Source: Nocardioides salarius (GTDB lineage: Bacteria > Actinomycetota > Actinomycetes > Propionibacteriales > Nocardioidaceae). From it: a DNA stretch of 64,000 bases. Positions 23,386 to 61,780 of this stretch are shown one piece after another; position 1 is the stretch's first letter; every line of letters starts with the position of its first letter. Where the stretch lies: NCBI RefSeq assembly GCF_016907435.1, contig NZ_JAFBBZ010000001.1, positions 3,100,001 to 3,164,000 on the forward strand. Direction: 5' to 3'. The position numbers and the translations under genes are program-made. A model generated the notes under the pieces. The model did no database searches and was not told where the DNA came from. It worked only from the letters and a program-made list of their open reading frames with translations.

Positions 23386-24594
23386 GTGAGCCAGCCTGTC
23401 GCACCCGATGCCGACCTGACCCTGCAGCGGTCCAGCCGCGACGCGAGCGACTCCGCCGCCAGGCTGGCGCGGTGGCTGGCCGCCCGGCTGCCCGCCGGTG
23501 CCGACCCCGGCGTGGCCCTCGGCTCCGGGGTCGACGCCAACGGGATGAGCTCCGAGACGGTCGTCCTCGACGTCACCTGGACCGAGGGCGGTCAGCGCCG
23601 CACGCGGGGGTACGTCGCCCGCGTCGCGCCCACCCCGCAGGACGTGCCGGTCTTCCCCGCCTACGACCTGGCGGGCCAGCACGAGGCGATGCGCCTGGTC
23701 GCCGAGCTCACCGACGTGCCGGTCCCGGCCGTGCGCTGGATCGAGCCCACCGACGAGGTCCTCGGCAGCCCCTTCTTCCTCATGGACCGGGTCGAGGGCC
23801 GGGTGCCGCCCGACGTGCTGCCCTACCCCTTCGGCGACAACTGGCTCTTCGACGCCTCCGCCGACGAGCAGCGCCGGCTGCAGGACCGCACGGTCGAGGT
23901 GGTCGCGGCCCTGCACGCCGTGCCCGACGCCGCGTCGCGGTTCGACTTCCTCGATCCCGGCCCCGGCCCCGGCCCCGGCCCCGGCCCCGGCCCCGGCCCC
24001 GGCCCCGGCCCCGGCCCCGGCCCCGGCCCCGGCACTGGCACCGACACCGACACCCTGCGGGCCGTCCTGGCCCGCACCCGTGCCTGGTACGAGTTCGCGA
24101 AGGCCGACGTCGGGCCCTCGCCCACCGCGGAGCGCGCGCTGGCCTGGCTCGAGACCCACGAGCCCGCGACGACCACCGGCACGGTGCTGTGCTGGGGCGA
24201 CGCCCGCATCGGCAACATCCTCTACGACGGCTTCGAGCCCGCCGGCGTGCTGGACTGGGAGATGGCCACGCTCGGCCCGCGCGAGCTCGACCTCAGCTGG
24301 CTGGTCACCGCCCACCAGGTCTTCCAGTCGATCGTGGAGGTGCTCGGCCTGCCGGGCATGCCGGGCTTCCTGCGAGAGGACGACGTCCTGGCGACGTACG
24401 AGCGCGCCAGCGGCGTCCGGCTGGGGGACCTCGACTGGTACCACGTCCACAGCGGCCTGCAGTGGTGCATCGTCTTCATGCGCACCGGCTTCCGGCAGCT
24501 GCACTTCGGCGAGATCGCCGAGCCCGACGACATCGAGTCGTTGATGCACAACCTGCCCCTGCTGCTCGACACGCTGGAGAGGGTGGGTGCCTGA
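23386..24594 (+). CDS. Phosphotransferase-family protein (APH fold) with (Pro-Gly)13 insert
   Basis: A 402-residue kinase-fold protein of the APH/ChoK superfamily, in the subfamily often found with acyl-CoA dehydrogenase genes. N-lobe: GYVARVAPTP (probable ATP-binding Lys replaced by Arg) and FLMDRVEGRVPPDVLPY. C-lobe: VLCWGDARIGNILYD (catalytic Asp in WGD, metal Asn) and GVLDWEMATLGPRELDLSW. Between the lobes a simple-sequence insert encodes thirteen Pro-Gly pairs followed by TGTDTDT. GTG 23386 follows GGGGGAG. It heads an operon with a lipocalin-like protein and an aldehyde dehydrogenase behind a KstR-like operator, so a role in lipid or alcohol/steroid catabolism is plausible. Substrate unknown. 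Confidence 0.85.
   Translation: MSQPVAPDADLTLQRSSRDASDSAARLARWLAARLPAGADPGVALGSGVDANGMSSETVVLDVTWTEGGQRRTRGYVARVAPTPQDVPVFPAYDLAGQHEAMRLVAELTDVPVPAVRWIEPTDEVLGSPFFLMDRVEGRVPPDVLPYPFGDNWLFDASADEQRRLQDRTVEVVAALHAVPDAASRFDFLDPGPGPGPGPGPGPGPGPGPGPGPGPGTGTDTDTLRAVLARTRAWYEFAKADVGPSPTAERALAWLETHEPATTTGTVLCWGDARIGNILYDGFEPAGVLDWEMATLGPRELDLSWLVTAHQVFQSIVEVLGLPGMPGFLREDDVLATYERASGVRLGDLDWYHVHSGLQWCIVFMRTGFRQLHFGEIAEPDDIESLMHNLPLLLDTLERVGA
23956..24033 (+). repeat. Hexanucleotide microsatellite CCCGGC x13
   Basis: Thirteen uninterrupted in-frame copies of CCCGGC (78 bp) encode (Pro-Gly)13 within the phosphotransferase gene. Gain or loss of units would change protein length without shifting the frame. 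Confidence 0.95.
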
Positions 24595-50413: not shown

Positions 50414-51373
50414 TCAGCCCTGCTGGTCGCGGGTGTCGGCCTCGACCTCGGCCAGGATGGCCCGCAGGTCGTCGACGGGGGTGTCGAGCATGACGGCGGT
50501 GCCGCCCGAGACCTCGACGACGCCCTCCTGCACGGCCTGGGTCTCCTGGTAGATCTCCACCAGGCGCTGGTACGTCGGGTCGTCGAGGTCGTCGGCCTGC
50601 GCGGCGAAGACGTTGGCGTAGGGCAGCGCCTTGGCGTCGTCGGGGTCGTCCTGGGCCAGGGCGTCGTCGAAGTCGAGGCCGGCGCGCTCCACGAAGTCGT
50701 TGTTGACCACGGCGCCGGCGAGGTCGTCGAGCGAGGTCGCGGTCAGCGCCGCGTCGAGCGCCTCGACCTCCACGCGGGAGGCCGCGGTGTCGATGTCGGC
50801 GAGGTCGGAGAAGATCGTCCCGCCGCTCTTGAGCTCGATCAGGCCGGCCGACTGCAGCAGCACCAGGGCGCGGGCCTGGTTGCTGGCGTCGTTGGGCACC
50901 GCCACGGTCGCGCCGTCGGGGATCTCCTCCACCGCGTCGTACTGCTTGGAGTGCAGGCCGAGGGGGTAGATCGCGGTGGCGCCGATGGGCTGCAGGTCGT
51001 CGCCGCTGGCGATGTTGTAGTCGGCGAGGAAGACGATGTGCTGGAACTGGTTGAGGTCGAGCTCGCCCTCGGAGACGGCCGGGTTGGGCTGGTTGTAGTC
51101 GGCGAAGTCGACGACCTCGACGTCGATGCCCTCGTCCTCGGCGGCCTGCTCGTAGGTGGCCCAGTAGGGGTCGCTGGCGCCCACGACGCCGATGCGCACG
51201 GTCTCACCGGCCGTGGGGGAGTCGTCGTCGCCGCCGGTGGCGGCGACCACGACCCCGGCGACGACCGCCAGCGCCACGAGCGAGGCCAGCACGAACGGCC
51301 AACGGCGCCGGTTCGGCGCCTCGACGAGGTCGGGGCCGGTCGAGGAGGAGGGGATGGGGGAGGAGTCAGGCAC
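50414..51373 (-). CDS. metQ: MetQ/NlpA-family binding protein with membrane anchor
   Basis: A 319-residue NlpA-type binding protein: IGVVGASDPYWATYEQAAED, NQPNPAVSEGELDLNQFQHIVFL, YPLGLHSKQYDAVEEIPDGATVAVPNDASNQARALVLL, all diagnostic. It has no cysteine near the N-terminus, so there is no lipobox; instead a basic patch (NRRRW) and a hydrophobic helix (about 25-46) suggest an uncleaved membrane anchor. GTG 51373 is used. First gene of metQNI. The 190 bp upstream before the repeat array show no SAM-riboswitch pattern that I can recognise. Confidence 0.93.
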   Translation of the reverse strand: MPDSSPIPSSSTGPDLVEAPNRRRWPFVLASLVALAVVAGVVVAATGGDDDSPTAGETVRIGVVGASDPYWATYEQAAEDEGIDVEVVDFADYNQPNPAVSEGELDLNQFQHIVFLADYNIASGDDLQPIGATAIYPLGLHSKQYDAVEEIPDGATVAVPNDASNQARALVLLQSAGLIELKSGGTIFSDLADIDTAASRVEVEALDAALTATSLDDLAGAVVNNDFVERAGLDFDDALAQDDPDDAKALPYANVFAAQADDLDDPTYQRLVEIYQETQAVQEGVVEVSGGTAVMLDTPVDDLRAILAEVEADTRDQQG

Positions 51374-51565
51374 GAGAGGTGACCTTCCGGGTCAGCGACG
51401 GGGAACGTGGCTACAACAGGTGTGGGCCCACGGCATTCCGGTTCCGGGCCACGCAGGGCCGTCATGTGCGTCACACGAGCAGGGGGTCGAGCACCAGGTG
51501 GGCGGACATCGCCGGGTCCTGTCCCTCCCGCGAGCTGGGCAGCCGTCGAGTGCTCGACCCTCGTT

Positions 51566-52410
51566 GGTCGAGCAGTGACGAGCGCCAGCGAGGAGCGTCG
51601 CCGAGACCGGGTGAGGTGCCCACGTGCCGTACGCCGGGTGGTTGCGGGGTCTCGGCGTCGCTCGAGCCTTCGGCCCTCGCTGCTCGACAACGACCGCCGT
51701 TGGTCGAGCAGTGACGAGCGCCAGCGAGGAGCGTCGCCGAGACCGGGTGAGGTGCCCACGTGCCGTACGCCGGGTGGTTGCGGGGTCTCGGCGTCGCTCG
51801 AGCCTTCGGCCCTTGCTGCTCGACCAACGACCGCCGTTGGTCGAGCAGTGACGAGCGCCAGCGAGGAGCGTCGCCGAGACCGGGTGAGGTGCCCACGTGC
51901 CGTACGCCGGGTGGTTGCGGGGTCTCGGCGTCGCTCGAGCCTTCGGCCCTTGCTGCTCGACCAACGACCGCCGTTGGTCGAGCAGTGACGAGCGCCAGCG
52001 AGGAGCGTCGCCGAGACCGGGTGAGGTGCCTACGCGCCGTACGCCGGGTGGTAGCGGGGTCTCGGCGTCACTCGAGCCTTCGGCCCTCGCTGCTCGACCA
52101 ACGGTGCTTGCTGGTCGAGCAGTGACGAGCGCCAGCGAGGAGCGTCGCCGAGACCCGGTGAGTGACGTGCTCGCCGTACGCCGGGTGGTTGCGGGGTCTC
52201 GGCGTCGCTCGAGCCTTCGGCCCTCGTTGCTCGACCAACGACCGCCGTTGGTCGAGCAGTGACGAGCGCCAGCGAGGAACGACGCCGAGACCCAGCGAGC
52301 ACCACACCCGCCGTACGCCATGAGGTCACCGGGTCTCGGCGTCGCTCGAGCCTTCGGCCCTCACTGCTCGACCAACGGTGCTTGCTGGTCGAGCAGTGAC
52401 GAGACCCTGC
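51566..52410. repeat. Array of six 136/137-bp palindromic repeats plus a partial seventh
   Basis: Units begin with GGTCGAGCAGTGACGAG at 51566, 51702, 51839, 51976, 52113, 52250 and (truncated) 52387. Each unit is a 43-nt left arm ending GTCGCCGAGACC, about 37 nt of spacer, and a right arm starting GGTCTCGGCG and ending CTGCTCGACC. Arms pair with each other within a unit. Adjacent units also form CTGCTCGACCAACG / CGTTGGTCGAGCAG with a 5-nt loop across most junctions. Units differ at a few positions. Long frames in the array are not genes. It fills the gap between divergent metQ and the epimerase gene. Confidence 0.95.
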
Positions 52411-52451: not shown

Positions 52452-53354
52452 ATGCGCATCCTCTTCACCGGCGGCAGCGGCAAGGCCGGCCGCCACGTCG
52501 CCCCGTTCCTCGCCGACCAGGGCCACCAGGTCACCAACGCCGACCTGGTGCCGCTCGACCACCCGGGGGTGGCCGACCTCCGGGTCGACCTGACCGACGC
52601 GGGCTCGACCTACTCGGCGCTGGCCGGGCTGGCGACCTTCGACGAGCTCGACCTGCCCGAGAAGCCGGCGTACGACGCGGTGGTGCACTTCGCCGCGGTG
52701 CCGCGCATCCTGCTCACCGACGACGCGACGACGTACGCGACCAACGTGCTGAGCACCTACAACGTGCTGGAGGCCGCGACCCGGCTGGGCGTGCGCAAGG
52801 TGGTCTTCGCCTCGTCGGAGACGACGTACGGCATCTGCTTCGCGCAGGGCGAGCGGCGCCCCCTCTACGTGCCGCTCGACGAGGAGCACCCCACCGTGCC
52901 GGAGGACTCCTACGCGATGTCGAAGGTGGCCAACGAGGTGACCGCGCGCTCGTTCCAGGCCCGCACCGGCGCCGACGTCTACGGGCTGCGGATCAACAAC
53001 GTCATCGAGCCCCACGAGTACGCCGAGATGTTCCCGGCCTTCCTCGAGGACCCCTCGCTGCGCCGGCGCAACGTCTTCGCCTACATCGACACCCGCGACC
53101 TGGGCCAGATGGTCCAGCGCTGCCTGGGGACCGACGGGCTGGGCTACGAGGTCTTCAACGTCGCCAACGCCGACATGTCGGTCGCCGCGACCACCGACGA
53201 GGTGCGCGAGCGCTTCTACGACGGCGTCGAGCAGCGCGGGGAGATGGGGCGCGACGAGACCTTCTACTCCATCGACAAGGCGCGCCGGCTGCTCGGCTAC
53301 GAGCCGCAGCACTCGTGGCGCGACGTGCTGGCCGACCCGGGGGCGTCCTCGTGA
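52452..53354 (+). CDS. NAD-dependent epimerase/dehydratase family protein
   Basis: A 300-residue extended short-chain dehydrogenase. The nucleotide-binding FTGGSGKAGRHVAPFLADQG (GxxGxxG) starts at residue 4; VVHFAAVPRI and VFASSETTYG follow, then the catalytic YAMSK (Tyr-x3-Lys). The C-terminal part (DTRDLGQMVQRCL, ARRLLGYEPQHSWRD) fits nucleotide-sugar epimerases/reductases. ATG 52452 is the family start, 41 bp after the last repeat unit. The next gene overlaps its stop (GTGA). Substrate not deduced. Confidence 0.9.
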   Translation: MRILFTGGSGKAGRHVAPFLADQGHQVTNADLVPLDHPGVADLRVDLTDAGSTYSALAGLATFDELDLPEKPAYDAVVHFAAVPRILLTDDATTYATNVLSTYNVLEAATRLGVRKVVFASSETTYGICFAQGERRPLYVPLDEEHPTVPEDSYAMSKVANEVTARSFQARTGADVYGLRINNVIEPHEYAEMFPAFLEDPSLRRRNVFAYIDTRDLGQMVQRCLGTDGLGYEVFNVANADMSVAATTDEVRERFYDGVEQRGEMGRDETFYSIDKARRLLGYEPQHSWRDVLADPGASS

Positions 53355-61475: not shown

Positions 61476-61603
61476 GGTCGAGCAGCGACGAGCGCCAGCG
61501 AGGAGCGTCGCCGAGACCGGGTGAGTGATCCGCTCGGCGTACGCCGGGTGGTTACTGGGTCTCGGCGTCGCTCGAGCCTTCGGCCCTCGCTGCTCGACCA
61601 ACG
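61476..61603. repeat. Dispersed copy of the 137-bp palindromic repeat (full)
   Basis: Starts GGTCGAGCAGCGACGAG and ends TGCTCGACCAACG. It has both arms and a spacer like those of the array at 51566-52410, 8 bp after the fno stop. Confidence 0.9.
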
Positions 61604-61619
61604 GGTGGTCGCGGCGTGG

Positions 61620-61672
61620 AGTGGTCACAGACGACGGTGGCGGGGGCTCAGTGCTTGTCGTTCGTGACCACT
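61620..61672. repeat. Long-armed hairpin between repeat copies (15-bp arms, 21-nt loop)
   Basis: GTGGTCACAGACGAC (61621-61635) pairs with 61657-61671 with two mismatches; the flanking A-T extends it. The 21-nt loop and arm size match the other long-armed hairpins. Confidence 0.6.
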
Positions 61673-61687
61673 GCGGCCCCGGCCGTT

Positions 61688-61780
61688 GGTCGAGCAGTGA
61701 CGAGCGCCAGCGAGGAGCGTCGCCGAGACCCGGTGCGTGGCGCGCGCGCCGTACGCCGTGGACTCACGGGGTCTCGGCGT
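61688..61780. repeat. Truncated copy of the 137-bp repeat ending in the ABC gene stop
   Basis: The complete left arm starts at 61688; the right arm stops after GGGGTCTCGGCGT, where it abuts the stop codon of the minus-strand ABC exporter gene (61780-61782). The repeat therefore supplies the first bases beyond, or a base of, the coding end. Confidence 0.85.

Follow-up and report, generated by a model that had tools for sequence, protein, structure and literature searches.

A tandem array of inverted-arm units in Nocardioides salarius belongs to a mobile REP/BIME-like family that recurs beside DUF222-HNH genes

The window, a 64,000-nt stretch of the Nocardioides salarius genome, belongs to a single 4.47-Mb contig and carries a tandem array between the starts of two divergently oriented genes, metQ and an NAD-dependent epimerase gene. 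The following features were located (window coordinates, strand in brackets).

50414-51373 (-): metQ, gene of a MetQ/NlpA-family lipoprotein, left neighbour, start toward the array
51566-52406 (+): whole array, six A-spacer-B units and a truncated A arm
51566-51608 (+): A arm of unit 1 (GGTCGAGCAGTGACGAGCGCCAGCGAGGAGCGTCGCCGAGACC)
51648-51689 (-): B arm of unit 1, outer end short by one base, hence a 136-bp unit
51702-51744 (+): A arm of unit 2
51784-51825 (-): B arm of unit 2
51816-51848 (no strand): perfect inter-unit hairpin, 14-bp stem, loop ACCGC, DNA z -8.3
51839-51881 (+): A arm of unit 3
51921-51962 (-): B arm of unit 3
51976-52018 (+): A arm of unit 4
52058-52099 (-): B arm of unit 4
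52113-52155 (+): A arm of unit 5
52195-52236 (-): B arm of unit 5
52250-52292 (+): A arm of unit 6, slightly diverged (GGAACGACG)
52332-52373 (-): B arm of unit 6
52387-52406 (+): truncated A arm of 20 nt (GGTCGAGCAGTGACGAGACC), found at the same place in N. cremeus
52452-53354 (+): NAD-dependent epimerase gene, right neighbour, start toward the array
61476-61730 (+): the window's other cluster of this family (A+ B- A+), 11 nt past a stop codon, in a convergent gap

Each unit of the array consisted of a 43-nt A arm (GGTCGAGCAGTGACGAGCGCCAGCGAGGAGCGTCGCCGAGACC), a 39-nt spacer with the conserved core GCCGTACGCC and an inverted 42-nt B arm (GGTCGAGCAGCGAGGGCCGAAGGCTCGAGCGACGCCGAGACC in the arm sense). 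All six B arms were placed 39 nt past their A arms, and consecutive units were separated by 12-13 nt. The A arms started at 51566, 51702, 51839, 51976, 52113 and 52250, that is, in steps of 136, 137, 137, 137 and 137 bp, the first unit being shorter because its B arm lacks one outer base. In the window, TRF returned a period of 137 bp with 6.2 copies and 92% matches at 51555-52403. The coordinates and lengths given by the initial annotation for six units of 136/137 bp and a truncated seventh were thus right, as were the position between the two gene starts and the recurrence of the element at 61.5 kb. The complementarity of the A and B arms was concentrated in about 10 outer and about 10 inner nucleotides, the middle matching poorly. 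A CRISPR array, which had already been discounted, was ruled out on anatomy, namely 137-bp inverted pairs, near-identical spacers and metQ and the epimerase gene rather than cas genes as neighbours. Elsewhere in the window, a perfect run of 13 CCCGGC repeats was observed at 23956-24033 within an open reading frame (23386-24594, +); it encodes a long Pro-Gly stretch and is a possible slippage site.

The pairing between consecutive units through a 5-nt loop was confirmed as the hairpin CTGCTCGACCAACG-ACCGC-CGTTGGTCGAGCAG, which was exact at 51816-51848, where it folded much better than shuffles; the 1/2 and 4/5 unit junctions carry imperfect versions of it. One 124-nt unit also folded better than shuffles (z -3.2), as did the C arm, a further arm type described below (z -2.6), and the RNA fold of the whole array reached a z of -10.8. 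The A arm alone and the B arm alone folded no better than shuffles, hence a conserved hairpin for each arm is not claimed. A U-tailed terminator signature was sought and not found, and Rfam gave no match above the gathering score, only sub-threshold chance matches. Both of the mutually exclusive folds that had been proposed are possible and beat shuffles as DNA; this double option comes with any tandem arrangement of units that have inverted ends. A regulatory switch between the two folds gained no support. A regulatory RNA that governs metQ or the epimerase gene by toggling between pairing within a unit and pairing across units would draw on the existence of both, but it was judged very improbable, given that the choice of fold follows from the repeat layout alone, that Rfam offers no counterpart above its gathering score and that, across the family, neighbouring genes differ, the number of units varies and most clusters do not lie 5' of genes.

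The array is one member of a dispersed family. A 26-nt arm pattern had 102 occurrences genome-wide, far above chance expectation, and its reversed control had none; the whole family amounted to 176 matches, 41 clusters and approximately 210 arms. Strict arm patterns placed 105 A arms and 79 B arms in the 41 clusters, together with shorter C and D arms (GGTTGAGGAGGTTGCGCAGCAACCGTCTCGAAACC; GGTCGAGGAGGGACGAAGTCCCGTCTCGAGACC) that stand in for B arms in many units. Arm lengths ranged from 33 to 43 nt. The arms were regularly spaced in alternating orientation, A+ B- with a 39-nt spacer being the dominant arrangement; the inner spacer (A to B) was mostly 39 nt and at times 52-57 nt, and the outer spacer mostly 12-23 nt. 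The frame GGTYGAG...CGARACC was common to all arms, and its Y and R positions were matched in every one of 85 multicopy arm sequences from this and related genomes (66 C-G, 19 T-A, 0 discordant), which are mutually related and fall into several arm families, so that the pairs do not count as independent events. Some T-type B arms face C-type A arms; the match is therefore kept inside the arm and not across the unit. Such matched ends and the strongly fixed spacing of 39 nt are what an array of double-stranded binding sites for gyrase, a nucleoid protein or a ParB-like factor would show, similar to BIME-2 with gyrase. That reading seemed unlikely: inner spacings of 52-57 nt occur as well, presence of the pattern in only seven of 59 genomes of the genus argues against an essential site, and the arms are not known to be bound by a protein.

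All 41 clusters were intergenic, in a genome in which 87% of the surveyed DNA codes, as judged by a simple codon-based gene caller run on genome stretches. Convergent gaps were enriched (18 of 41 clusters versus 22 of 214, p 1.4e-6) and divergent gaps depleted (3 of 41 versus 69 of 214, p 6e-4). Counting the copies and their positions relative to genes, a check suggested at the outset, thus revealed a preference for convergent gaps, and the window array, being one of the three divergent exceptions, is not typical of the family in its placement. In many clusters the A arm started 6-14 nt past a stop codon. A bias in replication direction was considered and dropped (27 of 41 clusters co-oriented, p 0.06). 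As a separate observation, a hairpin type (GAGCCGGCTSGTTCGAACSGGCCGGCTC), probably a terminator family, was repeatedly met past stop codons and in some cases within a spacer; examples lie at genome positions 1229025, 3184560 (inside an A-B spacer) and 3328720 and at the N. cremeus locus L272.

It is quite possible, if somewhat short of probable, that the arrays are kept for a function in the cell, their hairpins stopping or insulating transcription from both sides in place of ordinary terminators. The convergent enrichment and divergent depletion, the A arms close behind stop codons and the strong fold of the whole array are consistent with such a role, and the corresponding gap of N. cremeus at the empty site 3320085, discussed below, contains a strong hairpin resembling a terminator. 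Against it stand the missing U-tailed terminator, the unit number, which is not conserved, the window array itself between two gene starts, and plain promoter avoidance, which would yield the same placement. The earlier suggestion of a transcription insulator is therefore plausible by position, 3' of genes and in convergent gaps, but it is weakened by the lack of a U-tailed terminator and by the divergent setting of the window array. A barrier role can be combined with either of the mobility models considered below.

Further, the family was compared among relatives. The arm pattern was present in seven of 59 genomes of the genus and absent from most. In N. cremeus SOB44, the flanking genes of which are about 95% identical, comparable sites usually carried a cluster in the same place and orientation with a different number of units: six units here versus about two in N. 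cremeus at 4392877, two versus six at 323588, and three versus two at 2998783. At 3814910 the arrangement was A+C- here and A+B- in N. cremeus, showing that B and C arms are swapped in place. Units resembled one another more closely within an array (0.939) than those of the orthologous array (0.911) or of other arrays (0.890). The differing unit numbers at orthologous sites and the likeness within arrays show that the arrays expand locally in tandem and are homogenised. The window array is also found in N. cremeus, where it lies at two contig ends and closes with the same truncated arm; it is therefore not an assembly artefact. The initial annotation had worried that the element might be absent from the rest of the genome and from relatives or its copy number artefactual; the 41 clusters and the N. 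cremeus array answer both concerns. Many contigs of the N. cremeus assembly (NZ_JAULSC01) end at or inside arm arrays, and short-read assemblies of such genomes break there. At 1550530 and 2650703 (L297, L303) a cluster here is replaced by other DNA or a gene in N. cremeus; clusters may mark rearrangement points.

Single units were likewise present in one species and absent in its close relative, and arrays changed by whole units. The site 3476112 holds a solo A-B unit here and none in N. cremeus, which reads CCCCCTGACC-ACGAGCT-TCGGCGTGG where this genome reads CCCCCTGACC-CTCCGTCGGTCGAG...CTCGACCGACGG-TCGGCGTGG. The additional segment extends from CCGTC to GACGG, has 15-bp inverted ends (CCGTCGGTCGAGCAG / CTGCTCGACCGACGG) and replaces 7 nt; no target-site duplication was found at this site. 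Loss with a scar in N. cremeus, instead of a gain here, is the alternative. The clean empty sites comprised this solo unit and one nuclease gene plus array. For the window array itself no empty site was obtained: where checkable, the epimerase orthologues of relatives did not lie beside metQ, and N. cremeus carries the array. It was concluded that the arrays form a mobile, copy-number-variable REP/BIME-like family. No match in either the plasmid or the phage collection was found that would indicate such an origin.

Low-scoring open reading frames beside the clusters led to a gene family with a DUF222 domain (PF02720), DUF222-HNH of the 13E12 type, of which the genome holds eleven close copies (84-100%). 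Arms lay directly 3' of 10 of the 11 (one set degenerate), mostly 25-60 nt past the stop codon, the copy at 3235162 being without arms. In this genome the arms were never upstream of these genes, and it was invariably the B/C side of the array that faced the copies. Nine copies adjoin catalogued clusters, versus 0.2 expected (p ~1e-14), although copies may have duplicated together with a flanking array, so that the adjacencies are not independent events. Nine of the 41 clusters abut such a gene; no nuclease gene adjoins the other 32, and no nuclease remnants were seen beside them. On the left the nuclease copies ended at a common sharp boundary (GGCCGAGCAGTCA), which resembles the arm end GGTCGAGCAGTGA; beyond this boundary the flanks were unique and often began right after a stop codon. 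The stretch upstream of the copies was conserved and contained iterons of 22-24 nt. These direct repeats (GCACCATCGACCAGTCRSTTTC), present upstream of each nuclease gene (e.g. at about 1340-1440 of locus L083), are like iterons or operator sites.

The association extended to relatives. Arms lay 3' of five of the six close copies in N. cremeus, and nuclease-arm adjacency was also seen in Nocardioides sp. 503, N. lijunqiniae and the genome G024; at the arm-bearing loci of other genomes, 8 of 9 HNH matches were near arms. In the genome G054, where the copies are only about 48% identical, arms were found no more than about 350 bp away, on one side or the other, for about five of six; one gene lay within an A-B spacer and some had arms on the 5' side, an arrangement that looks like insertion into an array. 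Several nuclease copies were common to this genome and N. cremeus with array lengths that differed. At 3320085, N. cremeus has neither the nuclease gene nor the array, the two having been gained or lost together, and at 1486788 both are missing in N. cremeus as well. At 1015237-1016450 and 3027298-3028511 (L035, L050), arm clusters beside DUF222-HNH genes had an IS3-family element between them, in the same relative orientation at both; N. cremeus lacks the copy at 1015237 (NF033516) at the corresponding site. Hence the statement that the element is not in an IS context applies to the window array and does not extend to the family, given its nuclease neighbours and these two IS3 loci.

The predicted nuclease was examined for its domains. 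Its C-terminal region contains invariant Cys and His residues (C363, C368, H378, H379, C398, H401, H402 and H406) and a weak sequence match to the HNH domains of IscB, McrA and Cas8-HNH; the Pfam HNH match was below the cut-off. Foldseek alone gave no match for the model at E <= 0.001. In a second structure comparison of the model, on which the ParB/Noc and HNH resemblances rest, it aligned to the HNH domains of EcoKMcrA and IscB (Z ~8), and residues ~43-176 aligned best to the DNA-binding part of Noc, ParB, Spo0J and KorB (Z 8-9), although a Z near 9 in a helical region may reflect a common arrangement only, as the tool itself warns. Noc, ParB, Spo0J and KorB bind palindromes. The predicted protein thus looks like a ParB/Noc-like domain joined to an HNH domain, which we take as a lead.

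On balance, and by a small degree, we favor the proposal that the window array is a local expansion of the mobile REP/BIME-like family and that a DUF222-HNH element disperses the arms. The mobile module would be one unit, that is, an A arm, a spacer of ~39 nt and an inverted B (or C) arm, with the ends CCGTYGGTCGAGCAG / CTGCTCGACCRACGG. Its spread would be driven by a DUF222-HNH (13E12-type) element that bears arms at its 3' end. The ParB/Noc-like domain may recognise the palindromic arm ends and the HNH domain may nick them, after which a copy of the module would be made elsewhere through repair or recombination. The nuclease possibly moves its own gene too, as a composite bounded by GGCCGAGCAG and CTGCTCGACC. 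The arrays would then grow by local recombination, and the hairpins, once placed, may be tolerated or useful as 3' transcription barriers between neighbouring genes. Several observations weigh against the proposal: most clusters (32 of 41) lack an adjoining nuclease gene, the copy at 3235162 has no arms, some G054 genes lie inside an A-B spacer or have 5' arms, the one clean solo and the one clean nuclease-plus-array empty site could reflect loss in N. cremeus, and no target-site duplication indicates a known transposition chemistry.

The main and close rival is that the REP-like family spread otherwise, by host recombination, replication slippage or another enzyme, and that DUF222-HNH and IS3 elements use the arrays as safe insertion targets. 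We consider this possible, though well below probable. It would account for the G054 nuclease genes that lie within an A-B spacer and are flanked by arms on either side, for the many clusters without a nuclease neighbour and for IS3 between clusters at two loci, one of them without it in N. cremeus, and REPs are known IS hot spots (PMC1525189). Random insertion would, however, place arms on both sides of the nuclease, whereas here they lie only 3' of it, with the gene always on the B/C side, and at 3320085 N. cremeus lacks the array along with the nuclease gene. G054 thus fits insertion into arrays better, whereas this genome fits mobilisation by the nuclease better.

REP/BIME sequences of gamma-proteobacteria are short, dispersed, extragenic and alternating, occur regularly spaced in tandem clusters, lie downstream of genes and between convergent genes, and are hot spots for mobile elements (PMC2817692, PMC3733652, PMC1525189). 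The arm family has the same dispersal, alternation, spacing, clustering and gene-end placement as REP/BIME with RAYT (REPINs), and the earlier suggestion of a REP/BIME-like element was borne out by dispersed, extragenic, alternating inverted arms in high copy, present in relatives with varying unit number. The Y1 gene (TnpA-REP/RAYT) that had been proposed as its partner was not found: PF01797 was absent from this and the six other arm-bearing genomes, the control genomes being positive. Unlike RAYT-type REPs, the family has DUF222-HNH as its recurring neighbour, its arms begin with GGTYGAG and end with CGARACC without a GTAG or CGTC tag, and they are 33-43 nt long, A and B, though not C, failing to out-fold shuffles when taken alone. 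CGTC-tagged REPs have no dedicated tyrosine transposase either (PMC3733652), a trait shared by the arm family, which differs from them in tag, phylum and neighbour gene. Since neither the tag nor the transposase of RAYT-type REPs is present, the family is regarded as REP-like but as a new variant, and is not filed with them. No earlier description of it was found in the open-access literature, which is not proof of absence.

Similarly to MITEs, the arm module is short, non-coding and mobile, has inverted ends and lies in gene gaps. It differs in that no target-site duplication was seen at the one clean empty site of a solo unit, where 7 nt were replaced, and in that the possible parent, DUF222-HNH, shares its end only partly, the left boundary GGCCGAGCAGTCA resembling an arm end and the right being the array. 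MIRU-type mycobacterial repeats are intergenic tandem direct repeats with a strain-variable unit number; the arm units are likewise intergenic, tandem and variable in number, but they are inverted pairs.

Gene conversion is frequent at the REP13E12 loci of Mycobacterium tuberculosis, for which no function has been defined (PMC13061034, PMC10589994). The nuclease gene described here shares the broad DUF222-HNH type with these loci and occurs in multiple, near-identical copies, and its association with arm arrays, seen here in Nocardioides, is the new point. We know of no engine for REP-like families without a transposase, nor, to our knowledge, of a function for the multicopy 13E12/DUF222-HNH genes. 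The repeated physical link of arms and nuclease, together with the turnover and the empty sites, makes both questions testable in an actinobacterium that is harmless. We tentatively suggest, as an idea that is at present more doubtful than probable, that in actinobacteria REP-like modules are moved by DUF222-HNH proteins, which, as HNH nucleases with a ParB/Noc-like, palindrome-binding domain, would form a second class of REP partner unrelated to RAYT. If this is true, the orphan 13E12 family would gain a function, and DUF222-HNH would play the part that RAYT plays in proteobacteria.
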